A stretch of DNA of 64,000 bases from Thiomicrospira aerophila AL3 (GTDB taxonomy: Bacteria > Pseudomonadota > Gammaproteobacteria > Thiomicrospirales > Thiomicrospiraceae): the NCBI RefSeq assembly GCF_000227665.2, contig NZ_CP007030.1:1612001-1676000 (forward strand). Direction: 5' to 3'. Position 1 is the first letter of the stretch, and each line of letters opens with the position of its first letter. Below the pieces are notes generated by a model, which worked only from the letters and a program-made list of their open reading frames with translations, was not told the DNA's origin and made no database searches. Position numbers and translations under genes: made by a program. Positions 1-28,553 of this stretch are shown in pieces.

Positions 1-1344
1 ACGGTGTCTAGTTTAACTAGCGCGCCGCCTACTGACCCGTCACAAATGTCGGAAGCAGATCGTATTACCAATACACTAATGAACGCCAATCTTTGGATTG
101 TCGTGCTGACCTTCTTTATTTTCGGATTACTGCTGTCTTTCACCCCCTGTGTATTCCCAATGATACCGATTCTATCGAGTATTATTGTTGGCCAGGGCAA
201 TCAAAACATTACCGCTCGCAAAGGCTTTATTATCTCGTTAGTGTTTGTATTATCTATGGCACTGGCTTACACCATTGCCGGGGTATTAGCCGGCATATTT
301 GGTGCAAATTTACAAGCTGCATTACAAAACCCATGGGTACTCGGCACCTTTGCGATTATTTTTGTCCTGCTGGCACTGTCTATGTTTGGATTCTATGAAA
401 TCCAACTGCCATCGAGCTTGCAAAGTAAAATTACCCAATTGTCTAACAAGCAAAAAGGTGGCTCACTTACCGGTGTTGCCATTATGGGCTTTTTGTCGGC
501 CTTAATTGTTGGGCCATGCGTAGCGCCACCTCTTGCCGGTGCACTGATCTATATTGGTCAAACAGGTGATGCCGTTCTAGGTGGCTTAGCCCTATTTGCG
601 ATGAGTTTAGGTATGGGTGTGCCATTATTGCTCCTAGGGGCCTCGGCAGGCAAATTACTCCCACGCGCTGGCGCTTGGATGAATACTGTCAAAGCCGTGT
701 TTGGTGTGCTATTACTGGCTGTGGCGCTATGGTTAGCAGACCGCGTACTACCCGGCTGGATCAGCATGATTGGTTGGGCACTGCTGCTAATTGTTGCTGC
801 TATCTACATGGGGGCACTCGAACCCATTGGCGACAAATCCAACTGGCATAAACTTTGGAAAGGTCTTGGATTATCACTCCTTGTTACCGGCTTTGTGATT
901 ATTATTGGTTTAGCAGGCGGATCACGCGACCTGCTCCAACCGCTCAAAGTCTTCCAGGGTGGTGGCACCGCTGCGCAACAACAAGCGGAGCTTAAGTTCG
1001 AATATATCAATAGTATTGAAGAGCTCCAGGCACGCGTGGGTCAAGGTCAACCGGTCATGCTCGATTTTTATGCTGACTGGTGTGTAAGCTGTATCGAAAT
1101 GGAACGTTTCACCTTTAGTGACCCACAAGTTCAAGCCGCGCTAGACGGGGTGGTGCTCTTAAAAGCGGATGTCACCGCCAATACAGCTGACCATCGCGCA
1201 CTGATGCGTGAACTGGGTATTGTGGGACCACCTGCCATCCTATTTTACAATCCAGCAGGTGTTGAACAGCGAGGTCAACGTGTCGTCGGCTTTAAAAATG
1301 CCACTGAGTTTAAAGCGACTATTGATGCCGCACTCGGTCGCTAG
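1..1344 (+). CDS. dsbD: Thiol:disulfide interchange protein DsbD, 5' end outside window
   Basis: This is the inner-membrane electron carrier that passes reductant from cytoplasmic thioredoxin to periplasmic thiol proteins. The frame is open to the window edge. What remains is the linker, the transmembrane DsbD-beta domain and the C-terminal thioredoxin-like gamma domain, so the N-terminal periplasmic alpha domain lies upstream. A GTG at position 4 is probably internal, because full DsbD proteins are about 570-600 residues. Visible redox motifs are TPCVFP in the first membrane helix, GPCVAPP about 120 residues later, and WCVSC in the C-terminal domain. These are the beta and gamma cysteine pairs expected of DsbD. 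A strong hairpin terminator follows the stop codon. Confidence 0.93.
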   Translation, partial: TVSSLTSAPPTDPSQMSEADRITNTLMNANLWIVVLTFFIFGLLLSFTPCVFPMIPILSSIIVGQGNQNITARKGFIISLVFVLSMALAYTIAGVLAGIFGANLQAALQNPWVLGTFAIIFVLLALSMFGFYEIQLPSSLQSKITQLSNKQKGGSLTGVAIMGFLSALIVGPCVAPPLAGALIYIGQTGDAVLGGLALFAMSLGMGVPLLLLGASAGKLLPRAGAWMNTVKAVFGVLLLAVALWLADRVLPGWISMIGWALLLIVAAIYMGALEPIGDKSNWHKLWKGLGLSLLVTGFVIIIGLAGGSRDLLQPLKVFQGGGTAAQQQAELKFEYINSIEELQARVGQGQPVMLDFYADWCVSCIEMERFTFSDPQVQAALDGVVLLKADVTANTADHRALMRELGIVGPPAILFYNPAGVEQRGQRVVGFKNATEFKATIDAALGR

Positions 1345-1367
1345 TTTGTAACAACCATACCAGCAGG

Positions 1368-1401
1368 CCTGCTTATAACTTCATATAAGCAGGCTTTTTT
1401 G
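1368..1401 (+). terminator. Rho-independent terminator of dsbD
   Basis: Inverted repeat GCCTGCTTATA / TATAAGCAGGC with a six-base loop, followed by six T's. The 5' arm grows out of a CAGGCCTG palindrome at 1364-1371. It lies 23 bases after the dsbD stop and separates dsbD from aroQ. Confidence 0.9.
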
Positions 1402-1581
1402 TTTCACTGCCAAAATAACCAGTATGCAGGTAATTTCGCCGCTTTTTACAACAATTCCATCATCTAGCCCTCATATTTGCTCGCGCTTATCCATAGCAAT
1501 AGCAAAAGAATTAACTTATAATCATGCTCAGTCTTTGCAAAATTTAAACCGCATTCCCAAATTTTTGGAGCCCTAATCCTT

Positions 1582-2019
1582 ATGGCAAGCATTTTGGTCC
1601 TCAATGGTCCTAACCTGAATATGCTCGGACGACGCGAACCCCACATCTACGGTCGTCAAACCCTCGCTGATATTATTGAAGAATTAGAAACCATTGCCGA
1701 TGATTTTGCAGTTAGACTCTGGCATTTTCAAAGCAATGCTGAACACGCCTTAATCGAGCGTATTCATCAAGCCATGGATGATGGCACCGAATTCATTATT
1801 ATTAACCCTGCCGCTTTCACTCATACTAGTGTCGCCATTCGCGATGCCCTCGCGGCGGTTAATATCCCTTTTATCGAAATACACCTCTCTAATGTGCATA
1901 AACGCGAAAGCTTCCGACAGCACTCCTATTTCTCAGACCTAGCCGTTGGCGTCATTGCTGGCCTGGGTGCGGATGGCTATCGCTTTGCATTAGAAGCGGC
2001 CATTAAACATTTAGAATAA
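1582..2019 (+). CDS. aroQ: Type II 3-dehydroquinate dehydratase
   Basis: It catalyses 3-dehydroquinate to 3-dehydroshikimate in the shikimate pathway, in the cytoplasm, as a dodecamer. The 145 residues match the family length. Type II motifs are present: [10 protein letters not shown] near the N-terminus, followed by the REPHIYG loop with the catalytic tyrosine; [16 protein letters not shown] in the middle; and [14 protein letters not shown] with the catalytic-site histidine and arginine. The start is ATG with GGAG about 11 bases upstream. It is the first gene of a compact plus-strand run leading into accB and accC, an arrangement common in gammaproteobacteria. Confidence 0.96.
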
Positions 2020-2057
2020 CGACATTAAATAAATCAAAAATTACAAGGAATTACATC

Positions 2058-2522
2058 ATGGATATTCGCTCAATCCGCAAACTTATTGAAATTGTTGAAG
2101 AATCAAATATTGCTGAAATAGAAATTCAAGAAGGCGAGCATTCTGTTCGAATCACCCGCAACAAAGAACCTATTTACATGACCGCACCGACTGCAATGCA
2201 TTATCAAGCAGCCCCTACAGCGGCATCGAATCCCGCACCTGCAGCGCCAACCAGTGCGCCTGCGCCCGTTGCAGCCGCTGAACCGACTGGTACTAAAATC
2301 GCCTCACCGATGGTCGGTACCTTTTATGCCGCCCCGTCACCGACTGCGGCGCCTTTTGTAAGTGTAGGTGATAGCATCACGATTGGTGACACCCTGTGCA
2401 TTATTGAAGCGATGAAAATCATGAACCCTATCGAAGCGGAAGTTTCAGGTGTCGTCAAACAAATTCTGATTCAGAATGGTGAGCCGGTTGAATACGGTCA
2501 AACACTGTTTGTTGTTGAATAA
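2058..2522 (+). CDS. accB: Biotin carboxyl carrier protein of acetyl-CoA carboxylase
   Basis: It carries the biotin shuttled between biotin carboxylase and carboxyltransferase in the first step of fatty acid synthesis. The 154-residue protein has the usual layout. An N-terminal segment is followed by an Ala/Pro-rich linker (about residues 43-75) and a C-terminal biotinyl domain with EAMKIMN, placing the biotinylated lysine at residue 120. An AAGGA ribosome-binding site precedes the ATG. accC starts 9 bases after the stop, so the two are co-transcribed. Confidence 0.97.
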
Positions 2523-2531
2523 GGGTTAGCC

Positions 2532-3878
2532 ATGGAAAAACTACTTATAGCCAACCGGGGCGAAATTGCCCTTCGCGTGTTACGCGCTTGTAAACAACTA
2601 GGCATTAAAACCGTGGCTGTTCACTCCACAGCTGATGCTAACCTAAAACACGTGCTAATGGCCGATGAAACCGTGTGTATTGGCCCTGCAGCCTCAGCAC
2701 AAAGCTACCTACATATTCCAGCCATTATTTCCGCCGCTGAAGTCACCGATGCGGAAGCTATCCACCCAGGCTACGGCTTTTTGTCTGAAAACGCTGATTT
2801 TGCCGATCGTGTCGAAGAAAGCGGTTTTATTTTTATCGGCCCTAAAGGTGACACCATCCGCATGATGGGCGATAAAGTTCAAGCTATTCGCGCAATGAAA
2901 GCCGCAGGCGTCCCGACTGTTCCCGGTTCTGGTGGCCCACTAGGTGACGATGCTGAAACGAATTTACGTATTGCCAAAGAAATTGGCTATCCAGTGATTA
3001 TTAAAGCCTCTGGCGGCGGCGGTGGGCGCGGCATGCGCGTAGTGCATACGGAAGGCAGTTTATTAAAGTCGATTCAGCTAACCAAACAAGAAGCCGGTGC
3101 CGCCTTTAACAACCCTGAAGTCTATATGGAAAAGTTTCTAGAAAACCCCCGCCATATTGAAATTCAGGTTCTTGCCGATGGCCAAGGCAATGCGATTCAT
3201 CTAGGTGAACGCGATTGCTCGATGCAGCGCCGTCATCAGAAGGTCGTCGAAGAAGCACCCGCACCAGGCGTAACCGAAGAACAACGCAACCGCATCGGTG
3301 CAATTTGTGCCAAAGCCTGTGTTGACATCAATTATCGCGGCGCAGGTACTTTTGAATTTTTATATGAAAATGGTGAGTTTTATTTCATTGAGATGAACAC
3401 ACGTTTGCAAGTTGAACACCCAGTCACTGAGCAAGTGACGGGAATTGACCTGGTTAAAGCACAAATTGAAATTGCCATGGGCCGTCCATTGACCATCAAG
3501 CAATCTGATATCAAGCTCACTGGTCATGCGATTGAGTGCCGTATTAATGCCGAAAATCCAGCAAAAAACTTTATGCCCTCGCCAGGCAAAATTGAGCGTT
3601 TGCATTTACCCGGCGGCCCAGGCGTGCGCATTGACACGCATATTTATACCGGTTATACCGTCCCCCCTCACTATGACTCCATGATAGCCAAAGTCATTTG
3701 CTCTGGTGCCGATCGCGATACGGCGATTGCTCGGATGCGCACTGCCCTGCAGGAAATGGCGATTAAAGGGATTGACTCTAATATAGAGCTACAACGTGAA
3801 ATTATGAGTGATCAGGGCTTTACTGAAGGTGGCCGCAACATTCATTATCTCGAACATCGGCTTGAGCATTTAGTTTAA
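2532..3878 (+). CDS. accC: Biotin carboxylase subunit of acetyl-CoA carboxylase
   Basis: ATP-dependent carboxylation of the biotin on AccB with bicarbonate. The 448 residues match the family. The protein starts [20 protein letters not shown], has the glycine-rich ATP-grasp loop GGGGGRGMR near residues 163-171, and contains [14 protein letters not shown] with conserved catalytic-site residues. The TAA stop and the prmA ATG share one base (TAATG), so translation of the two is probably coupled. Confidence 0.97.
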
Positions 3879-4765
3879 TGGCTTGGATTCAAATCACCAG
3901 CACGGTTGCTGAAGCGCAGGCTGAACCCCTTTCCGATGCACTCATGGAACTGGGTGCGCTGTCTGTGACTTTTGCTGAAACCGGTGAACAAGAAATATTT
4001 GAACCTGAGCTTGGCACGACGCCGATTTGGCAACAAACTCGGGTAATGGGATTATTTGATGCACAGGTTAACTCTGCTGAATGCCTACTTGGACTCACTC
4101 AACTGATGCCCGAACTCTCACCGAGTCAATTTAAAGTTGAGCTCATTGAAGATAAAGACTGGGTTCGTGAATGGATGGATCAATTCCAACCCATGCAGTT
4201 CGGTACAAACCTGTGGATTGTGCCTAGTTGGTTAGCGGCACCCCACCCAGATGCGACAAATTTACTCCTTGATCCAGGTCTGGCGTTTGGCACCGGCACC
4301 CATCCAACCACTGCCATGTGCTTAACCTGGTTGGATGCTAATCCGCCCGTTAACAAATCTGTTATTGACTATGGTTGCGGCTCAGGTATTTTAGCGATTG
4401 CCGCGGCTAAACTAGGAGCCAACTCGGTTTATGCCACTGATATTGATCCACAGGCCATTACGGCCACACTTGATAATGCCCAGCGCAATCAGGTGACCGT
4501 GCAAGCAGGCCTGGTAAATGACATCAAACTACCCCAATCACAGCTGATTCTCGCGAATATCCTAGCGGGGCCATTAGCTGAACTCGCCCCCATTTTAAGC
4601 CAATACCTAGTCACCGATGGGCAACTGGTGTTATCAGGCCTGCTTGTTAGCCAGTCCGAACAACTGATCACCTGTTATCGCGAGGTTGGTATTGATCTTC
4701 AACTAGCAAACCAGCACGAAGACTGGGCATTACTGGTGGGCGTCAAAGCCACCCCAACGTCATAG
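3878..4765 (+). CDS. prmA: Ribosomal protein L11 methyltransferase
   Basis: S-adenosylmethionine-dependent trimethylation of ribosomal protein L11. The 295-residue protein has an N-terminal substrate-recognition domain (starting MAWIQI) and a C-terminal Rossmann methyltransferase domain. The latter carries the SAM motif VIDYGCGSGILAIAAAKLGA and the downstream LILANILAGPL motif typical of PrmA. It overlaps accC by one base. Two CAGGCCTG palindromes (4506, 4635) fall in its 3' third. dusB follows after 6 bases. Confidence 0.95.
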   Translation: MAWIQITSTVAEAQAEPLSDALMELGALSVTFAETGEQEIFEPELGTTPIWQQTRVMGLFDAQVNSAECLLGLTQLMPELSPSQFKVELIEDKDWVREWMDQFQPMQFGTNLWIVPSWLAAPHPDATNLLLDPGLAFGTGTHPTTAMCLTWLDANPPVNKSVIDYGCGSGILAIAAAKLGANSVYATDIDPQAITATLDNAQRNQVTVQAGLVNDIKLPQSQLILANILAGPLAELAPILSQYLVTDGQLVLSGLLVSQSEQLITCYREVGIDLQLANQHEDWALLVGVKATPTS

Positions 4766-4771
4766 CGCATT

Positions 4772-5767
4772 ATGAGCTGGCAACTCGGCCCCTATCAGCT
4801 TCCAAATAAATGGGTGCTCGCGCCAATGGCCGGAGTAAGCGATAGTGCTTTACGAAGCATCTGCTATAAACAGGGTGCCGGTTATGCGATTGGGGAAATG
4901 CTAAGCGCGCAAACCCACCTATGGGAAACCAAAAAATCTGCGACTCGACAGGTCAATATGGCAGATCCTGAACCGCGCGCCATTCAGTTGTTAGGTATTG
5001 ACCCTAAAGCCTTGGCTGATGCCGCACAGCGCCAAGTTGCTCAAGGCGCACAAGTGATTGATCTTAATCTAGGCTGTCCGGCTAAAAAAGTCTGTCAACA
5101 AGCAGCCGGTTCGGCCTTATTGGCCTACCCTGAGCAGGTTGCCAGTATTTTTAATGCAGTAGTGGCAGCGGTAGATGTCCCCGTGACTGTCAAAATTCGA
5201 ACTGGTATTAATGCCGAGCATAAAAATGGGCTTGAGATCGCCAAAATCGCCGAAGGCTGTGGCTTAAGCGCTATTACGGTTCATGGTCGAACTCGCGCAG
5301 ATAAATTTAACGGCCAAGCTGAATATGACACTATCGCGCTGATCAAACAAACCGTATCTATCCCAGTGATTGCCAATGGCGATATTTGTTCTGCCGAAGA
5401 CGCGCAATTTGTATTAAACTATACGAATGCCGATGCGATTATGTTAGGCCGCGCTGTACTGGGTCGACCTTGGCTTTTTAATCAAATTGACGCATGGGTG
5501 AACAACAAAACCCTGTTGCCAGATCCAAGCTTAATGGCAAGACAACATATTATGCGTGATCATTTAGATGCCATTTACCGATTGTACGGCGAAACCCAAG
5601 GTGTAAGAATAGCGCGCAAACACTTGGGATGGTACGCCCAGCATTTACCTGCAGGTGATCGTTTACGCCAGATGTTCAATCGACTGGATGTATCGACCAA
5701 ACAACAAGCCTGCATCGACAAATATTTTGATGCGTTAGACACAAGACTAGAATTAGAATCATGCTAA
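4772..5767 (+). CDS. dusB: tRNA-dihydrouridine synthase B
   Basis: FMN-dependent reduction of uridines in the tRNA D-loop. The 331 residues begin with the flavin-binding TIM-barrel strand (VLAPMAGVSDSALRSIC). NLGCPAKKVC around residue 100 holds the catalytic cysteine, and MLGRAVLGRPWLF is the family motif near the phosphate-binding end. The last codons overlap fis by 7 bases. The dusB-fis pair is a hallmark gammaproteobacterial operon. Confidence 0.96.
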   Translation: MSWQLGPYQLPNKWVLAPMAGVSDSALRSICYKQGAGYAIGEMLSAQTHLWETKKSATRQVNMADPEPRAIQLLGIDPKALADAAQRQVAQGAQVIDLNLGCPAKKVCQQAAGSALLAYPEQVASIFNAVVAAVDVPVTVKIRTGINAEHKNGLEIAKIAEGCGLSAITVHGRTRADKFNGQAEYDTIALIKQTVSIPVIANGDICSAEDAQFVLNYTNADAIMLGRAVLGRPWLFNQIDAWVNNKTLLPDPSLMARQHIMRDHLDAIYRLYGETQGVRIARKHLGWYAQHLPAGDRLRQMFNRLDVSTKQQACIDKYFDALDTRLELESC

Positions 5768-16768: not shown

Positions 16769-17146
16769 ATGAAAAAATCATTGTTTATAGCAGGTGTTTT
16801 AAGCTTAAGTATGTGGAGTCTAGGAGCGCAGGCGTCCGATCATAGTGCGCAACATTTTAAAGGCGTGCCTTCTGAAACCTACGAACAGGCGGTGGCGAAT
16901 TTAGCTGAATATAACCCCAAGCTCGCCGCAATCGTTGCCAAGGAGTCCTTAACCCCAAAAGACATGGCGGACATTCATCAGTTGACCTATACGCTGGAAA
17001 ATGCCATTGAACGGATTAAAGAACATTTGGAAATGACTGCCGAAACGCTTGAAGATGTGCATCAAGCCAGTGAAAAAGCGCAATACGATATTGCCCGCGA
17101 TCAAGGCCGCATCTATTTAGACGCCTCTAATTTACTAATAAAATAA
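16769..17146 (+). CDS. Small exported helical protein (DUF6746-like), copy 1
   Basis: 125 residues with a signal peptide (about 22 residues, ending GAQAS) and a mature part that is almost all helix: HFKGVPSETYEQAVANL, then IHQLTYTLENAIERIKEHL. It resembles the small periplasmic proteins grouped as DUF6746, an assignment from memory. GGAG sits at proper distance from the ATG. A second copy at 18802 is identical over most of the mature protein. The two flank a diguanylate cyclase. Function is unknown. Confidence 0.8.
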   Translation: MKKSLFIAGVLSLSMWSLGAQASDHSAQHFKGVPSETYEQAVANLAEYNPKLAAIVAKESLTPKDMADIHQLTYTLENAIERIKEHLEMTAETLEDVHQASEKAQYDIARDQGRIYLDASNLLIK

Positions 17147-17203: not shown

Positions 17204-18487
17204 TTGAAGACAATTATTAACAAACAGATTCATTGGATCCTTGTTGCCGGTGTATTTGCGCCGTTACTACTAGCAATAGCGGTAAGTTTATTGTTACCAA
17301 GTATCCTTTGGCCCAATCCGGTCTTACATGCTCTAATTGAGGGCGCAGGTGTAATTTTATACCTGAGCCTTGGAGTGTATATCACCACACTGGTCAAAAC
17401 AGATTCTTTACCTATCCGCTTTTATTGGCCCGTAGCGAGCTTTCTCGCCATGGGAGTTATTGCTATTTTTCATGGTAGCAGTGAACCAGGCAATACGTTT
17501 GTCGGTCTTCACAGTATTGGCGTGCTTGTCGGTGGTTTGCTGATGGCCATGATTGCATTACCATCGCGCCTGCAACACAAAACCTTGTTAACATACCTGC
17601 CATGGTTTGGTTTAGGCATAGGTTTTTCAATCAGCCTAGCCATGGTGATGATGGATCAACGCTTTCCAAGCATGCTGATTGAAGAAGGCGTGTTTAGTGA
17701 AACTGCGATCATCCTAAATACACTTGGCGCTGTTGGCTTTCTTATAGCAACCCTTCATCTCCTTTTCTACAAACATAGCAAGTTTTCCCATTGGGCGCTC
17801 GCACTATTAACGCTGCTTTTCTCTGTGTCTGCTGTTTTATTTGAATATTCAAGCCTATGGGATGCCACCTGGTGGCTGTGGCACTTTTTAAGATTTTTGG
17901 CATTGAGTTTGTTGTTAGCCTATTTTTTTTATTGGTTTTACAAACAAGCTGAAGAGGCCAAAGACCAAGCCGAAAAACTCGAAACCCTAGCATTCCGTGA
18001 CAGCCTGACAAAACTGCCAAATCGCGCCTTGTTTTATCAACAGTTTGATTTGGAGCTTAAAAAAGCGGCACGCAACAAACAAACCCTGGCCTTGTTATTT
18101 ATTGATTTAGATAGATTTAAGCAGGTCAATGACTCGCTCGGTCACGATGTTGGCGATCAACTTTTAGTTCAAGTCGCTCAACGTCTGAATGATTGTTTGC
18201 GCCAGGCCGATTTGCTAGCGCGCATGGGCGGTGACGAGTTCACCGTGATTTTGAATGGTGATCAGGATCAACAGCGCGCAGGCAAAGTGGCTGAGCATAT
18301 TTTGCAAGCCATTACCCCGCCCTACCTGATTCACGAGCACAGGCTGGAAATTGGTGCCAGTATCGGCATCGCCTTTTATCCACAAGACCACACCGACCTG
18401 CATGATTTAATGAGACTGGCAGACAGCGCCATGTATCAAGCCAAAGCCGCTGGACGCAATACCTATCGCTTTTATCAAGCTGATTAA
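17204..18487 (+). CDS. Membrane-anchored diguanylate cyclase (GGDEF)
   Basis: 427 residues. The N-terminal ~240 form about seven hydrophobic helices, probably a membrane sensor. A short coiled-coil linker (KQAEEAKDQAEKLETLAF) leads into a complete GGDEF domain: RDSLTKLPNRALFYQQF, LFIDLDRFKQVNDSLGHDVGD and the active site MGGDEFTVIL. An RQAD inhibitory-site motif lies five residues before GGDEF, so product feedback is likely. The protein should make cyclic di-GMP. The only start giving the full membrane domain is TTG at 17204 with a weak ribosome-binding site, so the start is uncertain. Confidence 0.88.
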   Translation: MKTIINKQIHWILVAGVFAPLLLAIAVSLLLPSILWPNPVLHALIEGAGVILYLSLGVYITTLVKTDSLPIRFYWPVASFLAMGVIAIFHGSSEPGNTFVGLHSIGVLVGGLLMAMIALPSRLQHKTLLTYLPWFGLGIGFSISLAMVMMDQRFPSMLIEEGVFSETAIILNTLGAVGFLIATLHLLFYKHSKFSHWALALLTLLFSVSAVLFEYSSLWDATWWLWHFLRFLALSLLLAYFFYWFYKQAEEAKDQAEKLETLAFRDSLTKLPNRALFYQQFDLELKKAARNKQTLALLFIDLDRFKQVNDSLGHDVGDQLLVQVAQRLNDCLRQADLLARMGGDEFTVILNGDQDQQRAGKVAEHILQAITPPYLIHEHRLEIGASIGIAFYPQDHTDLHDLMRLADSAMYQAKAAGRNTYRFYQAD

Positions 18488-18722: not shown

Positions 18723-18801
18723 CTTGCATCCCTCAGTGCATCGACTCTTTTTTGTTGTAAGCTATAAAATGTTTTCTTGTCATTTAATGTGGAGTCTTGT
18801 T

Positions 18802-19179
18802 ATGAAAAGATCATTGTTAGCAGCGGGGGTTTTAAGCTTAGGTTTGTGGAACCTCGAAGCGCAGGCTTCCGATCACGGTCCGCAACATTTTAAAGGTGTG
18901 CCTTCTGAAACCTATGAACAGGCGGTGGCGAATTTAGCTGAATATAACCCCAAATTGGCCGCAATCGTCGCCAAGGAATCCTTAACTCCAAAAGACATGG
19001 CGGATATTCATCAGTTGACCTATACGCTGGAAAATGCCATAGAACGGATTAAAGAACATTTGGAAATGACCGCCGAAACGCTTGAAGATGTGCATCAAGC
19101 CAGTGAAAAAGCGCAATACGATATTGCCCGCGATCAAGGCCGCATCTATCTTGAGCAATCTAGGGTTTTTGTAAAATAA
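18802..19179 (+). CDS. Small exported helical protein (DUF6746-like), copy 2
   Basis: 125 residues starting at the ATG at 18802. The frame is open further upstream, but the GGAG and the signal peptide (MKRSLLAAGVLSLGLW) fix this start. From DH onward it matches copy 1 almost exactly until the last ten residues (LEQSRVFVK here, LDASNLLIK there). About 70 bases upstream are also similar (a T-rich run, then GTGGAGT before ATG), so the promoter was duplicated too. Function is unknown and periplasmic location is inferred. Confidence 0.8.
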   Translation: MKRSLLAAGVLSLGLWNLEAQASDHGPQHFKGVPSETYEQAVANLAEYNPKLAAIVAKESLTPKDMADIHQLTYTLENAIERIKEHLEMTAETLEDVHQASEKAQYDIARDQGRIYLEQSRVFVK

Positions 19180-19247: not shown

Positions 19248-21599
19248 TTAAGCCGTTTTTTGTTTGTCGACAAATTGCGCTCGAAGCTGTTGTGCGGCTT
19301 TGACCATATTCGCCAGTGCCGGTTCGGTTTCCGCCCAGCCGCGGGTTTTTAAACCGCAATCCGGGTTGACCCATAGCCGTTCAGCCGGAATCAATTGGGC
19401 GGCTTTTTCAGTCAAACGCACCATCTGCTCGACCGTCGGAATATTCGGCGAATGGATGTCATACACCCCCGGGCCGATTTCATTCGGATAGGCAAAATCG
19501 ACAAACGCATCCAGCAGTTTCATATTGGATTTCGAGGTTTCAATCGTAATCACATCGGCATCCATCGCTGCCACCGCTTCGATAATGTCATTAAACTCCG
19601 AATAACACATGTGGGTATGAATCTGCGTATCATTCTGCACACCAGACGTGGTAACGCGGAAACTGTTGACCGCCCAGCGTAAATAGTCCGCCCAATCCGA
19701 CTTTTTCAACGGCAAACCTTCGCGTAAGGCCGCTTCATCAATCTGAATCATATGAATACCGGCGACTTCCAAATCCAGCACCTCATCACGCAAAGCCAAA
19801 GCAATTTGGTTACAGGTGGTTTCACGCGGCTGATCATTGCGCACAAACGACCATTGCAACATGGTCACCGCGCCGGTCAACATGCCTTTCATAATCTGAT
19901 CAGTTTGGCTTTGCGCATACTGCGACCAGCTCACCGTCATCGCTTGCGGACGCGACACATCGCCAAAAATAATCGGTGGTTTCACACAACGCGAACCGTA
20001 AGACTGCACCCAACCGAACTGAGTAAAGGCATAGCCATCCAACTGCTCACCAAAGTATTCCACCATGTCATTGCGTTCAGGTTCGCCATGCACCAAGACA
20101 TCAATGCCAATGCGTTCTTGACGTTCACAGACATCACGAATCTCCGCTTGCATCGCCGCGATATACTGCGCTTCGGTCAGCGTGCCGTTTTTAAACTGAC
20201 GACGTGCTTGACGGATTTCAGCCGTTTGTGGAAACGAGCCAATGGTGGTGGTCGGGAACAGCGGCAAATTAAACTTAGCTTTTTGCAGTCGCGCGCGCTC
20301 GCTGTAAGGCGCAGCACGATCAAGCGGTAAGTTAGCCAACTGCGCCAAACGCGCTTGCACCTGCGCATTATGAATCAGCTCAGATTGCTGTTTGTCTGCC
20401 ATCAGCTTGGCGTTCGCTTGCAACGCAGCTTGATCAGCTTGACCGTTTAGCGCATCGGCAATCAGCTTTACCTCGGCGAGTTTTTGTTTGGCAAACGCCA
20501 GATAGCTTTTCAGTTCAGGATTGAGTTTATCCTCCACCTCCAGATTCAGCGGCACATGCAATAACGAACAGCTCGGCGCAATCCACAAATGATCAGCAAA
20601 CTTATCTTTGGCGGCTTGCAGGCTGGCAAGCGCCGCATTCAAATCGGTTTTCCAAATATTACGACCATCAACCAAACCAAGCGACAACACCTTATCCGCC
20701 GGATACTGCGCAATCAGCGCATTTAACTGCTTTTCGCCGCGCAAGCCATCATAATGCAGGCCTGCTACCGGTAGATTGCACACTAAATCCAAGTGCGCGC
20801 CCAAGGTTTCAAAATAGCTCGCCAACAGAATTTTCACCGGCGTTTGGCTCAATTCAGCATAAGCGAAATCAAACGCCTGCTGCCATTCTGCGCTCAGTTC
20901 CAAGCCCAAAATCGGCTCATCAATTTGCACCCAGTGAATCCCCTGCTCGGCCAGTTTTTGCAGAATTTGTTGATAGATTTTTAGTAACGCTGGCAAACGA
21001 CTCAGCTTAGGAATCGCATGGCCGACATTTTCCGCCAAATACAAATAAGTCACCGGCCCGACCAACACCGGTTTAAAGTCAATATTCTGCCCATCGCCCT
21101 TGAGTGCTAAAGCTTCCGCCACTTCCGCAAACAAGCGCGTATCGGTAATCGCAAATTCAGTGTCGTCATACAGCTCCGGCACAATGTAATGGTAATTGGT
21201 ATCAAACCATTTTTTCATCGCCCCCGCATAACCCGCTTTAGATGGATTGGCTTGATGCCCGTGCCCGGCACAGCAGGCCTGGTCGTCGGACGGCGCACGC
21301 CCCCGCGCCATCCGAAACGCCACATCCAACTCATAATTTTCCTGACGGAAACGCTTGGGAATCACGCCCAGCAAAGTGCTCATATTTAATACTTGGTCGT
21401 AATAGGCAAAGTCATTCAGTGGAATCAGCTCAATGCCCGCGGCGATTTGCGTTTGAATGTTTTGATAGCGAATCTCCGCCGCCACCGCATCGAGTTCGGC
21501 TTGGGTTTTATCGCCCTTCCAATAGGCCTCCAGCGCAAATTTCAATTCACGAAAATCGCCAATGCGCGGATAACCGAGGTTATGCGTTTTAATCGTCAT
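19248..21599 (-). CDS. metE: Cobalamin-independent methionine synthase
   Basis: Transfers a methyl group from methyltetrahydrofolate polyglutamate to homocysteine. 783 residues in two barrels. The C-terminal zinc site shows [11 protein letters not shown] (His-x-Cys) and [12 protein letters not shown] (second Cys). The N-terminus [20 protein letters not shown] is typical. Near residues 105-125 there is a Cys/His/Gly-rich stretch ([20 protein letters not shown]) before [15 protein letters not shown] that is longer than I expect for E. coli MetE; a CAGGCCTG palindrome lies inside it. AAGGA precedes the ATG. The regulator metR is 10.4 kb away in divergent orientation. Confidence 0.96.
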
Positions 21600-21834: not shown

Positions 21835-21903
21835 GCTCTAACGCCCTGCTCAGCGGGCAATTGAAGCGCAGCGTAAATTGTCCACTGCAGCAGTTTGTTA
21901 TGC
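21835..21903 (-). repeat. attC site of cassette 4
   Basis: On the minus strand it runs from R'' GCATAAC (containing the TAA stop of the upstream gene) to R' GTTAGAG, with imperfect inner arms (CTGCTGCAGTGGACAATT against AATTGCCCGCTGAGCAG). R'' matches the cassette's own first bases, TTATGCAT. Confidence 0.88.
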
Positions 21904-22458
21904 ATTGAACAGTCCCCGCCTGAACACTCCAAGTTCTTCCGCCCACTGTTTTGAAACTTTATGAAGAATATGAGCAAGCTCTCTACAACACTCAGGAGTA
22001 AAAAAAGCATTATCCTCGCCCAAATCGGCATTTATGTATTCAAGAATATTGCCATGGCAAAGGTTGTGGCGAATACGCACCACCTCAGTATTGACCAGGT
22101 TAGGTTTCTTACTTTTTAGCTTTTCTAGAAAATCACTCTCTTCTGGAAAAGCCAAATATTCTACTGGCAATCCTGCATCTTGAGCAGATTTTAGAAGCCT
22201 GTTGCTCAACGTCTTAATAGGATCAAGCTCTTCCACTCGAGCTGGATTCTCTACTTGAGATATTGTAACTCTTAGGGAGGCTTCGATACCGTTAAGGAAA
22301 CTTGTACATGCTGGTAGATAGAGTTCGCTTTTCAGCGCTTGAACTGCCTGCGTAAAGAACCAATGGACTTCAGCGCCAAGACCTCGCTCAGCGAAGAAGA
22401 CTTTCTCTTGATACTCCCTTTGTCCGACCTCTATGAACTTTTGAATTTCTTCATTCAT
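21898..22458 (-). CDS. Cassette 4: HEPN-like hypothetical protein
   Basis: 186 residues, helical, with no signal peptide. The segment VVRIRHNLCHGN holds R130-x4-H135 with an Asn between, the pattern of HEPN ribonuclease motifs (RNxxxH or RHNxxH). An earlier helical stretch (ACTSFLNGIEASLR) resembles the first HEPN helices, where a small hydrophobic helix ends in an acidic residue. The stop codon lies inside the attC R'' box, as is usual in cassettes. Possible roles are defence or a toxin. No antitoxin is adjacent in this cassette. Function is inferred from the motif only. Confidence 0.65.
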   Translation of the reverse strand: MNEEIQKFIEVGQREYQEKVFFAERGLGAEVHWFFTQAVQALKSELYLPACTSFLNGIEASLRVTISQVENPARVEELDPIKTLSNRLLKSAQDAGLPVEYLAFPEESDFLEKLKSKKPNLVNTEVVRIRHNLCHGNILEYINADLGEDNAFFTPECCRELAHILHKVSKQWAEELGVFRRGLFNA

Positions 22459-22474
22459 GCACTACCCTCAAGAT

Positions 22475-22530
22475 GCATAACGCCCTAATTAATCGCCGCT
22501 TTAGCGGTCGATTGCATTAAATTGTTAGGC
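22475..22530 (-). repeat. attC site of cassette 3
   Basis: Short attC of 56 bases: R'' GCCTAAC to R' GTTATGC on the minus strand, with paired arms ATCGACCGC / GCGGCGAT around a small loop. The 3' end of the upstream gene runs through it. Confidence 0.85.
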
Positions 22531-23210
22531 TCTTCATTGCCAATAGCAACAAGCCAATCGAACATGTTTTCATAGTTTGGATATGGAGAAAATATATCTG
22601 CTTTAAGAACCGAAATTATTGTGCGAGCCATCAAAACCATATCTTGTCTTGAAAAAGTCCAAAAATCATTGTCTCTATCATGCTGAACTGAGTGTATATG
22701 GACACGATTGCGGAGCTTTCTAAGATGGTTAAGTTTTGAATAGACTTCAGACTCAAAGCCTAATATTTTTGTTTTTTCTGCACGCTTACACATATCGATG
22801 AATTTCATCTCCACATCGACGGGGTTCTCTAGTTTTCGATAATGTGTCACTTCAAACTTATAATCTGAACCACTATCTGTGAATTTATTCGTTTCTCGTT
22901 TTTGAATCTCTTCCCACTCTAACTGCTTGTTTAGATTATTGCCTTTTAATAGCATCCATAGAATGGACTCAATCACACTGCTTCCAGTGATTACAAATGT
23001 TTTTATCAGCTGGCTTTCTATCACTGCATGAGTAGGTAGGCTTGTCATGATATAACTGATATATTCCATGTACTGCAACGAGTATGAAATGTTTCGAATA
23101 TACGCTCGCCGGTACTTTACAAAAACTTTTCCCGGCAACGCTCGTTGCAGGTAGTCATGATAGTGCTGAACACGTTTTGGCATAAATTCTTCGTTTTTTT
23201 CTAATGCCAT
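22485..23210 (-). CDS. Cassette 3: HEPN-like hypothetical protein
   Basis: 241 residues, unrelated in sequence to the cassette 4 product. LRKLRNRVHIHS near residues 163-174 contains Arg-Asn with His at +4 and +6, reminiscent of an HEPN RNase site. The preceding segment (TFVITGSSVIESILWMLL) fits the N-terminal HEPN helices. The last ~14 residues (ending LMQSTAKAAIN) are encoded by attC itself, so the C-terminus is a by-product of cassette structure. The start ATG lies near the cassette 5' end. No family name can be given. Confidence 0.6.
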   Translation of the reverse strand: MALEKNEEFMPKRVQHYHDYLQRALPGKVFVKYRRAYIRNISYSLQYMEYISYIMTSLPTHAVIESQLIKTFVITGSSVIESILWMLLKGNNLNKQLEWEEIQKRETNKFTDSGSDYKFEVTHYRKLENPVDVEMKFIDMCKRAEKTKILGFESEVYSKLNHLRKLRNRVHIHSVQHDRDNDFWTFSRQDMVLMARTIISVLKADIFSPYPNYENMFDWLVAIGNEEPNNLMQSTAKAAIN

Positions 23211-23225
23211 GATCTATCCTGTGTA

Positions 23226-23303
23226 GCCTAACGCCCGCCATCACCGGTGACAAAACCGGCGCGAAGCAGAGGTTTTGACGTCCGGTGCATGGCTTGGTTA
23301 GGC
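23226..23303 (-). repeat. attC site of cassette 2 (TIR-caspase)
   Basis: 78-base attC with R'' GCCTAAC and R' GTTAGGC. Long complementary arms (CACCGGACGTCAAAACC against GGTTTTGTCACCGGTG) have the usual unpaired bases. It lies 18 bases after the caspase stop. Confidence 0.92.
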
Positions 23304-23321
23304 GCTGTATACATGTGGCAC

Positions 23322-24296
23322 CTATAGTCGATTCTTTGCGACGAGTCGCCTGTAATGCTCTCCTAAAGCTGTAAGCCTACAGCCTTTACTTTCCATTGCC
23401 GCATTCCACATATGAGGAGCGTCATCGGGAACGAGGAGGTTTAGGCGATTGTATCTCTGCAAAATAGCAAACTTCCGATTGTTCTCTGGATCTGGCGGGG
23501 GCATACCATCGTCTCGACCCTTCATTTCTGGCTCAAATGTTGGATCAAGCTTGAAAATCGCTCCTGGAGACGGGAAGAACTCGGTTATCCTGCGCAAGTC
23601 CTCGATGGCGATGGCAGGCGTGGATTTTCTAAGCGACACAAACTGCCTGACATTTGTTTTGAATACGGGCCTTTGCTCCCAAGCCCCTAGCGATTGATCA
23701 ATGTGCGCATACACGCTACCAGGAGTGATATCTCCTGTTAGGTTTGCCGCACTACCGTTTAATGCATCCACAAAAAGAGTGGTAAAAACTCCTCTGCCAT
23801 TCTCTTCTGTAGCATATTGGTCCTTGGTGGATGCTGTGAGCACAGTTAAACCTTCAGAAAGAGTTGCGAGCTGCCCAGCCTCTGGGGGAGTACCTGCGAT
23901 TCCAGAATGACAACTATCAAGAACGATCACTTTGTTTTTAGCTGGTGAAGCGTTGGCCAATGTTAGTATCTCGGAAAGTGATACTCCTTCGTCACCTCTG
24001 CTTGAGTCAGAAGCCAAAAGATATCCGCCGGCAGTTTCGATATGCCCATGCCCAGCGAAGTAGAACAATGCAATGTCCGCATCAGTTCTGAAAAGCTGCT
24101 CGATTTGATCTTTAAGATCTCCGCGCTTAACTTTGTTATCGGGTCCGGTTCCGGTCAGCAAGCGGCAATCAAAGTTTACAGCTCCGCCATCATGACGCTC
24201 CAAAACAGCTTTGACTGAGTGGGCATCATTGACGCATCCATGCAGCGATCCACCATGATCGTAATGATTGATGCCCACAACTAAGGCAATTCGCAT
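23322..24296 (-). CDS. Cassette 2: caspase-like protease, putative type IV Thoeris effector
   Basis: 324 residues. The N-terminal ~215 form a peptidase C14 fold: [20 protein letters not shown], catalytic His83 in FYFAGHGH and catalytic Cys129 in [10 protein letters not shown]. The C-terminal ~110 residues are unassigned and may be regulatory or ligand-binding. The ATG follows AAGGAG and lies 15 bases after the TIR gene stop, in the same cassette. Published type IV Thoeris pairs a TIR protein that makes N7-cADPR with a caspase-like protease that then degrades cell proteins during phage infection. The gene pair here has that composition. The ligand and activity are inferred. Confidence 0.85.
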
Positions 24297-24311
24297 CTTC
24301 TTCTCCTTCCA

Positions 24312-24683
24312 TCACAGGCTATCGATGAAATCTTCGATAGCTTTCCACGTCCATACCACGGTTAGGACGCCTTGGACATTTGTCCTGTCATCTGTATAGG
24401 CCCAAATTCCAAGGACTTTCTTGCCTTCTTCCTTGGCACATGCGATTTCCCACTTTTGCCCGCTGGAGGTCAGAGAGTTCTTACTTATCAAAGCTATGAC
24501 GCCATCCGACCTTTTTATTCTTGTTCGGACCCTATCTTTCCAATTCGTGTCATATGGTTCTTTGACTGACATGTCTATGTATTCAAACGGTGACTTGGTA
24601 TTTAGAGACTGACCTTTAAGAAAGTCGCGTTGCCTCTCGTCCTCAATAGCAAAAGCTACAAATATGGTTTTTTTACTAGCCAT
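24312..24683 (-). CDS. Cassette 2: ThsB-like TIR-domain protein, putative phage sensor
   Basis: 123 residues forming one TIR-like domain of the MTH538/ThsB type: KKTIFVAFAIEDERQRDFL, then WKDRVRTRIKRSDGVIALIS, then KWEIACAKEEGKKVLGI. Glu79 in the WEI motif is at the position of the catalytic glutamate of NAD-consuming TIR enzymes. No transmembrane or extra domain is present. GGAG/AAGAAAA lies just before the ATG and the cassette boundary is 40 bases upstream, so the promoter is probably supplied by the array or lies in the first bases of the cassette. It is co-transcribed with the caspase-like gene. Confidence 0.82.
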   Translation of the reverse strand: MASKKTIFVAFAIEDERQRDFLKGQSLNTKSPFEYIDMSVKEPYDTNWKDRVRTRIKRSDGVIALISKNSLTSSGQKWEIACAKEEGKKVLGIWAYTDDRTNVQGVLTVVWTWKAIEDFIDSL

Positions 24684-24717
24684 TTTTCTTCTCCTAAGTG
24701 TGTAGAGCCACCGGCTC

Positions 24718-24790
24718 GCCTAACGCCAAAGCTCACCGGCGGCGATGGAGCGCAGCGGAATTGCCGTCCGAGTGCAGCGCCTTGTTAGCT
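24718..24790 (-). repeat. attC site of cassette 1 (restriction-modification)
   Basis: 73-base attC: R'' AGCTAAC, with the endonuclease stop codon inside it, to R' GTTAGGC. Arms GCACTCGGACGGC and GCCGCCGGTGAGC are imperfectly complementary. R'' pairs with the cassette start TTAGCTGC at 27388. Confidence 0.9.
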
Positions 24791-25771
24791 GCTTTTTTCA
24801 TGCGGCCCCAGAAAACGGTCACCATTGAAATGAATCATGTGGTCTGGATTGTCTGCTATCCAGACTTCAGTTTCCCAGGCAATATCAGCCGCATTTTTTC
24901 GGAATTCTGCTCGGTCTGGAAAGGCGGTGACGTAAACCAAACCAACTTTGCAATCTTTGAAAGCTTGTTCAAGCTCAATCCAGCGTTTAGGTGATACCGG
25001 CCCATGACTGGTAACTGCTTCGATTAAGAACAACCATTCCCGCTTTTCATCGTACACAACAACGTCCGGTAGTTTGTCGTGTGACATAGGTGGAACACCC
25101 AAGCCTTCCAAATAGTCAGATTCCAAATACATGAGTTTTCCGCCTTCCTTGCGACTACTGGCGGTGTCTCCAATATACAGAAGGCGCCCACCCTCTCCAA
25201 TAAAACGCGAACAAAAGTCATGCACAATGTCTGCATGAAGCTGATTGTGTTTTCCGGGTGACAGCTTGATTACATCGCCATTAGGTAACGTGATTGGGAT
25301 TTGGTGTTTTTGCAGACTGCGCTCATACAATGCTTGAAGCTCAGGAACGGCTTTTTTGAATACTTTAATTTTTTGCCTCCAATCACCGTTAGGGTAAGCC
25401 TTCAATATGTCGATGATTGGCTGATTCAAAGAGTAATTATTGTCTTTGCTATTGGTGGGGCGTGTTGGATCGTCGCGGTTGCGGTCAATGATTCGCGCCT
25501 GTTCAAACTGGTGAAGGGTTTGCCTTCTAATCGTTTCGCGGCTATTGGGTTTGTAGTCTTTGCCGTAATGGTTACGGATGAAGTCCATAATCACATACGT
25601 TGGCAGCAATGGAGCGGTAGCCACCGCCCACCTTTCATTAGGCTTTACATTCGCAAGTGCCAAAAACACCCATGCTGAGCGGTCGTTGTATTGTGCGGGT
25701 GGTAGCCCCAGTTGTTGAAGTATCTCTTTTGCCTGTTCAAGCTTGATTTGTTGTTCTTCTGTGAATTCCAA
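24785..25771 (-). CDS. Cassette 1: BsuBI/PstI-family type II restriction endonuclease
   Basis: 328 residues, close to the size of R.PstI. The C-terminal nuclease domain contains [19 protein letters not shown] (a PD...(D/E) arrangement) and [15 protein letters not shown]. It ends with [10 protein letters not shown], a block I associate with this family. By family, the target would be CTGCAG. It starts 11 bases after the methylase stop and terminates in the attC. Cleavage specificity is inferred. Confidence 0.85.
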
Positions 25772-25782
25772 GGCTCTATTCC

Positions 25783-27306
25783 TTACACGGTTTCTTTGAT
25801 CTTTAAAACTCTGTTTACAATAATATTGTTCTGGTCTGCATCAAAGACATTGAGCTTCAATACCTCTTCGCCAATATCTTTAACTTGGTCACGTGTTGGA
25901 AACCTCATAACCCTTATTTCAGTTGCGTTTACTTGGGTGTTGCCAGATATACATCTAAAGTAACGGTCAAAGAATGAACCATTGAAAATAGCGCACAAAC
26001 CATAAGCTTCTTTTTTAGTCAGTTCGCCGGATCTCACACCGATGTAATTGACCTTGTTTCCAAACCCAATGAATTCAAGGTCATCAAAATACTTTGATAG
26101 ATACACACCGGACACTAGGCGGCGCTTTTCATCTTTGGAGGAAAACCGCTTTAGAAGCACATAGTTTTTATTGTTTAATGTGTGCTTTTCGTGTTGTGCC
26201 TGTAGTTCAAAGCGAACATCTTTTTTATTCTCACCAGTCCACAGCGCGGCATAGGGCGTAACATTGTGCGGTCTATACAGTGGTATGGTGTTGTTTTGAC
26301 TGTCTGCTGAAACTATGAAGTTCCGTGTTCTATGCTCAACTACTGGACCGGTTGAAATGAAGTAGCCTGAATCTGTGAATGTTGATTCTAGTTGTTCAGC
26401 CTGTTTTAAAAGGTTGGCTTCTGTGAGTGATTCAGGAATTCTTATCAATCTTTGATCGTTGGATGGGTCAACGATCAAATCAACTGGATAGTTTTGAATT
26501 GTTGCACTTGTCAGATTTGAATCACAGTCACTAGCTCGAACTTCAACAGCTTCATAATTCGCGGCTTTCACGAATTTGCAAATAATATTTTCTTGTAAAA
26601 CCTTATCAGCATCATTTTTAAAAACGCGGTCACGATGTTTGAAAATATGGATTGATTCAATTGCAGTGACATTTAACAGGTAATCTCTGAAGCTTTTGAA
26701 GTAAAGACCATTGGTAAAGCTACGGGGTGTAATTGCTACCATTTGACCGCCTTCATTTAGGCTGGAAGCAACAATAGCCATGAATGAAGCGTATATATTC
26801 GGATCACCACTATACAAGTCACTAACGGCTTTTGCATAAGGTGAGGTTTTAACGTTGTATTTGAAGTAAGGCGGATTGATTACCGATACATCAAAGGATT
26901 CTTTCTTGTCCGGCCGATCAAGCACAAAATCACTATTTCTTATCTCGAAAGTGAATTTAACACTCTTGGACTGGTAAAAGTGTTCAATGTCCTTCATTGT
27001 CTGGTTTAGATGCGCGATAACTAAAGAATCGAGTTCATACAAAACCGCATGAACAGCTTTGCAACCTAGTCCTAAGAGTTGCACGGAAGTAGCAGCAGTC
27101 AAAACACCGGTTCCTGCACCAGCATCAAGAATACTTATTATCTTTCCTTTGGGCTTGTGTAGCATTGAAGCCATATAGTCGGCGACAACTGGACTAGTGA
27201 AAAATTGCCCTAATGTTTTTCGATCTTGCGCAGATTTGCTGCGTAAAAACGCACTCTGAAGACTAATCATGTCATCTTTGGGCTCAATTAATGACTGTTG
27301 ATACAA
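25783..27306 (-). CDS. Cassette 1: adenine-N6 DNA methyltransferase (PstI/BsuBI type)
   Basis: 507 residues, the same length as M.PstI. The SAM motif [14 protein letters not shown] and the catalytic [10 protein letters not shown] identify a gamma-type N6-adenine methylase. [16 protein letters not shown] is typical of the Eco57I/PstI group. It starts at TTG (27306) with a perfect GGAGGTAA at 7 bases, and no ATG fits better. It protects the host from the endonuclease made from the same transcript. A dyad lies in its promoter region at 27344-27364. Confidence 0.9.
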
Positions 27307-27343
27307 ATTTATTACCTCCAGACCAGATATATCCTCTATTTTA

Positions 27344-27364
27344 CAGTGTTCATGCCAGACACTG
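27344..27364. promoter_or_regulatory. Dyad upstream of the cassette methylase, candidate operator
   Basis: CAGTGT-N9-ACACTG, perfect arms, lying just upstream of a TAAAAT -10-like box (27338-27343, minus strand), about 40 bases before the TTG. An operator here could delay or self-limit methylase expression. No separate controller gene is seen. Confidence 0.35.
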
Positions 27365-27380
27365 AACAGCGCTTCCTTTT

Positions 27381-27389
27381 GCAGCTAAC
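27381..27389 (-). other. Array entry junction (G|TTAGCTGC)
   Basis: GTTAGCTGC on the minus strand is the 5' end of cassette 1 and complements its R'' (GCAGCTAAC at 24784-24792). Upstream there is no recognisable attI or further attC, so insertion may have been at a secondary GTT site. Confidence 0.75.
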
Positions 27390-27771
27390 TATTATTAGAC
27401 ATCCTAAACCAAACACATTAAGCATGCCAATAAATTATAAAACTACTATTTTATATCGGTAATTTCGTAGATTGAATTAACATAACACCATGTTATTATT
27501 AATTTTGATTTCAATCCTTAGCGTTTTATGAGTCATAACTTATGGCGACTAAACCACGCTTTTTAGACATGGTGTGAACGCATCCAAACTAAGCATTATT
27601 CTATACGCACTGAGCAGTCTTAGGTTAAAAATGTGACACGGGCGAAAACACAGTTTTTGCCTGTATTTTAACAAGAACTGAAGCCAGTCAATTACTTGAA
27701 AATATTCCACTTTTTTATCAGCTTCACACCAGGCCTGGTTTCACTAAGCACTGCTGTTATTGGGTTAAAAC
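27390..27771. other. AT-rich gap with no recognisable gene
   Basis: Only short frames, none with family features. It contains one CAGGCCTG palindrome at 27730-27737. The host chromosome appears to resume here, upstream of the cassette array. Confidence 0.5.
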
Positions 27772-27889
27772 CTATATCCCCGATATTAAAAAATCGATTA
27801 CCGCCATGTCTTGCGTCATCAGGGTATAAGACTCGCCTTCAATCAATACGACCGGGTTCAGCTTGGATAACCGAAAAGCTTGCCGTATA
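27772..27889 (-). pseudogene. Remnant of a CcdB-type toxin
   Basis: The minus strand reads SKLNPVVLIEGESYTLMTQDMAV and then stops within a dozen residues (positions given; this is a block, not a full gene). It matches the CcdB segment LxPVVxIxxExxxxMTxDMA. There is no start and no C-terminal ALDxLxxGF. The promoter of the following antitoxin now overlaps its 5' side. Confidence 0.45.
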
Positions 27890-27891
27890 AT
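27863..27891 (+). promoter_or_regulatory. Sigma-70 promoter of the phd-vapC-like module
   Basis: TTGGAT, 17-base spacer, TATAAT, ending 33 bases before the antitoxin ATG. Confidence 0.65.
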
Positions 27892-27924
27892 CAAACTAAA
27901 CCAAACTTAGCTAAGGATAAAATT

Positions 27925-28170
27925 ATGCACGCGGTCAATATGTTTGAAGCCAAATCTCAGCTTTCTAGACTGATTGAAGCGATTGAAAGCCATCAAGAAA
28001 AAGAGATTATTATTGCGCGCCACGGCCGTCCGGTTGCCAAGCTGGTGCCACTTGATACCACGCCTGATACCACGCTCAGAATTGGCGTTGCAAAACATCT
28101 AATCATTCCCGATGATATTGATGCTCATAACGACCAGGTCGCCAAGCTGTTTTTAGGACAAGACGCATGA
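27925..28170 (+). CDS. Phd/YefM-family antitoxin
   Basis: 81 residues from the ATG at 27925 (AAGGA 7 bases upstream). An upstream TTG in frame overlaps the -10 box and is rejected. MHAVNMFEAKSQLSRLIEAI and RHGRPVAKLVPL are the typical Phd/YefM DNA-binding fold. The C-terminus would bind the toxin. Its stop overlaps the toxin ATG by 4 bases. Phd-type antitoxin with PIN toxin is a common hybrid type II module and probably autoregulates the promoter at 27863. Confidence 0.9.
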   Translation: MHAVNMFEAKSQLSRLIEAIESHQEKEIIIARHGRPVAKLVPLDTTPDTTLRIGVAKHLIIPDDIDAHNDQVAKLFLGQDA

Positions 28171-28553
28171 ATATTTTGCTCGACACCCATATCGCGCTTT
28201 GGGCGATTGCCGACAGCCCCCGCCTCAATGCTCAAGCTAAACAGGCCATTTTAAACCCCAAAAATACCCTTTGGGTTAGCACCGTCAGTTTGTGGGAAAT
28301 TGCAATCAAACACAGCCTTGGCAAGGGCGACATGCCTGTCGATGCCAAACAAGCACTGAACTATTTTCAAGCCGCAGGCTATCAAATATTGCCCATCTAT
28401 GCCGAACACACCCTTGCGATTGCCGAATTACCCTACCACCATCAAGATCCATTTGATCGACTGCTGATTGCACAGGCGATGACCGAGCCGATGCGACTCA
28501 TGACTCATGACACGCAAATTGAAAAATACGGCAGTATGGTCTTAATGGTTTAG
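28167..28553 (+). CDS. PIN-domain toxin (VapC-like ribonuclease)
   Basis: 128 residues. LLDTHIALWAI holds the first catalytic Asp, WVSTVSLWEIAIKHSLGK the Glu, DPFDRLLIAQA the central Asp pair and LMTHDTQIEKYG the last acidic residue. These are the four acidic positions of a PIN nuclease, so it should be active. Overlap with the antitoxin gene (ATGA) couples translation. A CAGGCCTG palindrome lies 42 bases after the stop. Confidence 0.9.
   Translation: MNILLDTHIALWAIADSPRLNAQAKQAILNPKNTLWVSTVSLWEIAIKHSLGKGDMPVDAKQALNYFQAAGYQILPIYAEHTLAIAELPYHHQDPFDRLLIAQAMTEPMRLMTHDTQIEKYGSMVLMV

Follow-up and report, generated by a model that had tools for sequence, protein, structure and literature searches.

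The window analysed here is a stretch of 64,000 nucleotides from the forward strand of the Thiomicrospira aerophila AL3 genome. At 21.8–27.4 kb it holds four complete integron cassettes, all on the minus strand, between metE (19248–21599) and a phd/vapC-like gene pair (27880–28553). From the putative entry point onward, the parts of the array are:

27390–27878, minus strand: attI-like flank of the array, its function presumed; occurs twice in the sister genome G754
24724–27389, minus strand: cassette 1, with an N6-adenine methylase (25783–27306) and a BsuBI/PstI-type endonuclease (24785–25771), by Pfam and PADLOC
24718–24790, minus strand: attC of cassette 1, with which the start of that cassette pairs
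23232–24723, minus strand: cassette 2, with a ThsB-like TIR protein (24312–24683; Pfam ThsB_TIR, PADLOC ThsB) and a caspase-like protein (23322–24296; Pfam Peptidase_C14, PADLOC caspase)
23226–23303, minus strand: attC of cassette 2
22481–23231, minus strand: cassette 3, boundaries G^TTAGGCT and G^TTATGC
22485–23210, minus strand: ORF of cassette 3 (241 aa), HEPN-like candidate with invariant K70, E81, L163, R164, R167, N168 and H171
22475–22530, minus strand: attC of cassette 3
21842–22480, minus strand: cassette 4, boundaries G^TTATGC and G^TTAGAG, with identical ends in loci L002 (two copies) and L003
21898–22458, minus strand: ORF of cassette 4 (186 aa), probable HEPN protein with invariant E59, R130 and H135
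21836–21903, minus strand: attC of cassette 4, with R''/R' core sites and a foldable stem; same site in L002 and L003
21798–21841, minus strand: truncated start of a fifth cassette, beginning at the core site of the cassette 4 attC; from 21798 onward the sequence again agrees with that of the sister genome

Cassettes 3 and 4 each consist of an ORF with its own attC and end at core sites, i.e., they have the make-up of integron cassettes, and an earlier note that had set two consecutive cassettes at 21835–23231 was right almost to the base. The attC sites were located manually, by means of their core sites and folding; a regular-expression scan for attC with an overly strict pattern returned no matches. 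In every case the opening bases of the cassette are complementary to the R'' end of the attC that belongs to it, which shows that the cassettes were captured individually, as separate circles. No integron integrase was found in the 2.16 Mb single-contig genome, where XerC- and XerD-like genes alone matched (one adjoins a dsbC-like gene, one adjoins hslV), so that the locus is a four-cassette array lacking an integrase rather than a complete integron (intI plus attI). Relatives of the same family carry full-length IntI-like genes (42–51% identity) and one genome of the same genus a broken fragment.

A sister species (G754), whose MetE is 97% identical, has different cargo at this site, which makes the locus a variable insertion site. 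The segment from 27390 is present there in two copies, each ending AATAATAG^TTA and passing at the same base into a different cassette-like start, and we infer that 27390 is an attI-like point. The sister's cargo between metE and phd (L103, 5150–12100) includes an AAA/DUF2326-like gene together with the two flank copies, which imply two arrays or a duplication. On the other side of metE in the window, two near-identical small exported-looking proteins (16769–17146 and 18724–19179) surround a GGDEF-domain gene (17204–18487), a tandem duplication.

The neighbours of cassettes 3 and 4 are as the earlier note had described them, a TIR-plus-caspase cassette and a BsuBI/PstI-type restriction–modification system. 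Its wider claim, that the whole array is defence cargo, is supported by matches to family models in cassettes 1 and 2, and is likely for cassettes 3 and 4 from the locations of their relatives. The TIR and caspase genes of cassette 2 (23322–24683) have the make-up of type IV Thoeris (PMC12847820), and a related pair (63% DNA identity) is followed immediately by a cassette 4-like attC in the relative G579 (L022/L029).

Cassette 4 is truly mobile, as the same cassette, with agreeing ends and attC and differing flanks, is present in two other genera. Its protein is 89% identical to a cassette protein of Billgrantia kenyensis (L002) and 88% identical to one of Photobacterium galatheae (L003). In Billgrantia an array next to intI contains two identical copies of the cassette (L002, 2638–6379), with the gene at position 1 and again farther on and unknown cassettes between. 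Against these counterparts dN/dS is about 0.1–0.2 (0.12–0.19), which places the protein under purifying selection. Further relatives (~42–51% identity) are found on 991 plasmid records, all annotated as hypothetical; where examined, these plasmids are mostly IncHI1/IncHI2, with the gene between umuDC and ter genes or nearby. On IncHI plasmids (L005, 6647–10624) the relative is followed by proteins of 121 and 1113 aa, neither with a Pfam match. A relative in the same identity range, on a Pseudomonas phage-plasmid, has a defence RT-protease gene on one side and a bSEFIR gene on the other. No relatives turned up in the phage collection, and scans of viral contigs for further relatives gave one useful locus (L018).

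The published HEPN signature (PMC3710099) combines Rx4-6H, in which a polar residue (N, D or H) follows the Arg, with an acidic residue in a preceding helix. In cassette 4, the RHNLCH motif to which the earlier note had pointed is present as R130-[HN]-x-x-C-H135 (i.e., Rx4H), and R130 and H135 are invariant in 10/10 aligned members, as are E59, R128, C134, G136 and N137, while residue 131 is H or N. The position four residues after E59—a K or R in Ex3[KR], the usual setting of the upstream acid in helix 2—is R in eight members and M in two. By the conservation of E59 and R-[HN]-x3-H, cassette 4 carries the published signature. Presence of the motif by itself is worthless as evidence, since R-x4-6-H arises in 55% of cassette 4 shuffles (55–76% across shuffles of both proteins); the evidence is its conservation. 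The narrower pattern R[NDH]x3H arises in 2.7% of cassette 4 shuffles.

Profile comparisons point the same way, weakly. The only Pfam hint in the family is a match of one member to HEPN_MAE_28990 (E = 0.028, motif in register), and no HEPN profile was reached above its cut-off in the search that the earlier note had proposed (best 15.0 bits against the 26.8 required). When cassette 4 was aligned by hhalign with two collected HEPN families, the top match set RHNLCHG on RNxIAHG; 3/150 and 7/150 shuffles equalled the scores, a result no worse than when one accepted HEPN family is compared with another, and not every accepted family matches another by profile. Global hhalign was uninformative, hand-made consensus sequences retrieved nothing from Pfam, and profile searches of the PDB gave noise or nothing. 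Neither protein has a significant match to a HEPN model or solved structure. The HEPN fold is a four-helix bundle in which the motif ends helix 3; AlphaFold, given four sequences of cassette 4, returned an all-helical model of low confidence (pLDDT 49.7), and the Foldseek matches of this model were discarded (all E > 1); such low-confidence models are the source of what weak support there is for calling the two proteins helical. Taken together, the sequence comparisons make cassette 4 a probable HEPN RNase.

Cassette 3 was not found in any other array. Its nearer relatives (26–36% identity) are rare, on a Synechococcus plasmid, Apilactobacillus plasmids and in one gammaproteobacterial genome, and the farther ones form a rhizobial group (18–21%) reached through a second gammaproteobacterial genome. 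Across ten relatives (18–36% identity) K70, E81 and L163-R164-x-x-R167-N168-x-[VI]-H171 are invariant. The RNRVHIH on which the earlier note had based its HEPN claim is present (R167-x5-H173) and is not the conserved pattern, as most of the other relatives have Q or A in place of H173. The spacing is likewise particular: R164-x6-H171 lies within Rx4-6H and R167-x3-H171 outside it, such that cassette 3 would fit the published spacing only if the catalytic Arg were R164. In the protein of the window, E81 has no K or R at +4. The two cassette proteins, which the earlier note had called unrelated, have no recognisable similarity to each other, and their kinship was rejected, as what slight similarity there is falls outside the motif. 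'HEPN-like', the note's term for both, suits cassette 4 by residue conservation and, weakly, by profiles, and leaves cassette 3 as a candidate.

Cassette 3 is treated here as a possible HEPN variant rather than a member of the superfamily. It is conceivable, if rather unlikely, that only cassette 4 encodes a HEPN RNase and that cassette 3 encodes an unrelated helical protein, in which LRxxRNxVH would be structural or would bind a ligand or partner, e.g., as an accessory factor of IetAS-type systems. The R167–H171 spacing speaks for such a division, as do the lack of a HEPN model match in any cassette 3 family member and a resemblance to DUF4145 that faded from 4/150 shuffles with five sequences to 59/200 with ten (and is not relied on here, the match having gone with the larger set). 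Set against it are the invariant E81, an R, N and H that follow one another as they would in a HEPN protein, and the alignment of the E81 helix with the RiboL-PSP HEPN family, which beats 200/200 shuffles. Setting R167-N168 on the R-N of MAE_28990 gives a score without significance (22/200 shuffles), and an AlphaFold model of cassette 3 alone was of low confidence (pLDDT 35) and was discarded.

The best clue to the function of cassette 3 is the position of its far relatives. On four rhizobial plasmids, a relative directly follows genes for an ATPase and an S8 peptidase, a pair that PADLOC models identify as IetA and IetS at L081, where the pair was tested. In that locus (550–5419) a small gene belonging to the cassette 3 superfamily comes straight after IetA–IetS, and in S. 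meliloti a DUF5677 protein follows; both the small gene and the DUF5677 protein are possibly unrecognised parts of IetAS. Unlike these operons, neither cassette 3 nor its nearer relatives have IetA or IetS beside them, and the identity that joins the two groups is only 18–21%. A bolder proposal, which we regard as improbable, is that the cassette 3 family is a HEPN branch with a shifted site (R-N-x-x-H or R-x6-H) that would serve IetAS as its nuclease effector in rhizobia, perhaps triggered by the protease, and would also travel as a solo cassette.

Our preferred reading, to which we give a probability of roughly 0.5, is that both cassettes are separately acquired solo effectors of abortive infection, cassette 4 encoding a HEPN RNase and cassette 3 a similar variant. 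The cargo of each would be a single effector gene that works on its own. Most likely the protein of cassette 4 is a metal-independent RNase of the HEPN superfamily, its Rx4H site (R130, H/N131 and H135, aided by E59) being assembled at a homodimer interface; phage infection would activate it, RNA would be cut and growth would stop. The cassette 3 protein probably acts alike, with a variant motif whose site would be formed by R164/R167, N168, H171 and E81. The earlier note had seen no obvious antitoxin for either, and at the distant loci no partner recurs, save the IetAS-type pair upstream of the far cassette 3 relatives; both proteins are therefore expected to stay inactive in the absence of a trigger, or to be expressed weakly. 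The two are the last complete cassettes of the array, those farthest from the presumed promoter.

Whether such RNases would act on phages is a further matter, and we consider it unlikely that the proteins are HEPN RNases of another purpose, i.e., stress-induced dormancy RNases or stabilisers of arrays or plasmids. Roles of that kind have been suggested for the first HEPN family from integrons (PMC3710099), and family 4 is a fixed part of IncHI plasmid backbones, where most of its plasmid relatives sit beside umuDC and ter with no clear defence island—a point that we count against our own reading. On the other side, no antitoxin partner recurs, and the array and several of the distant loci contain defence genes. 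Less probable still is that neither protein is HEPN and that the Arg/His pattern has arisen by chance in two unrelated families of helical proteins, whatever their role: the ease with which more than half of shuffled versions yield R-x4-6-H and the want of a significant family or structure match favour this, against which the family 4 motif is invariant with the right neighbours (polar after R, upstream acid) and its best profile matches are in register on the motif.

If the preferred reading is right, two orphan families, both tied to defence, gain a likely function and likely sites, and one of them (cassette 4) is carried without annotation by roughly a thousand sequenced plasmids of enterobacteria, most of them conjugative. 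The locus also provides, from outside Vibrio, a compact array of defence cassettes that varies between strains. An integron-cassette HEPN family, Vpc_cass2 (PDB 3JRT), has been known since 2013 (PMC3710099; PMC3548836), and like it cassettes 3 and 4 are single-gene gammaproteobacterial integron cassettes with no partner gene, Rx4-6H being kept in the published family; unlike it, neither protein nor profile has a sequence match to 3JRT (E up to 10). With HEPN_MAE_28990 and HEPN_RiboL-PSP (PF18737, PF18735) family 4 shares R-[NH]-x-x-x-H-G and the upstream acid, motif in register, whereas the score of 15.0 bits falls far short of the curated cut-off of 26.8 and nothing outside the motif is significant. 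Integrons were presented as antiphage libraries in 2025 (Darracq 2025; Kieffer 2025; Getz 2025), and, in the account given by a review of that work (PMC12409362), they likewise carry small defence genes and compact restriction–modification systems as single cassettes; the present array, compared with those systems as the review conveys them, differs in having four cassettes without an integrase in a non-Vibrio genome. Since HEPN cassettes and integron defence libraries were both known, the two proteins add new families to a kind already described. The one part that could surprise is cassette 3 with its link to IetAS, which offers a lead for an extra gene in IetAS operons.
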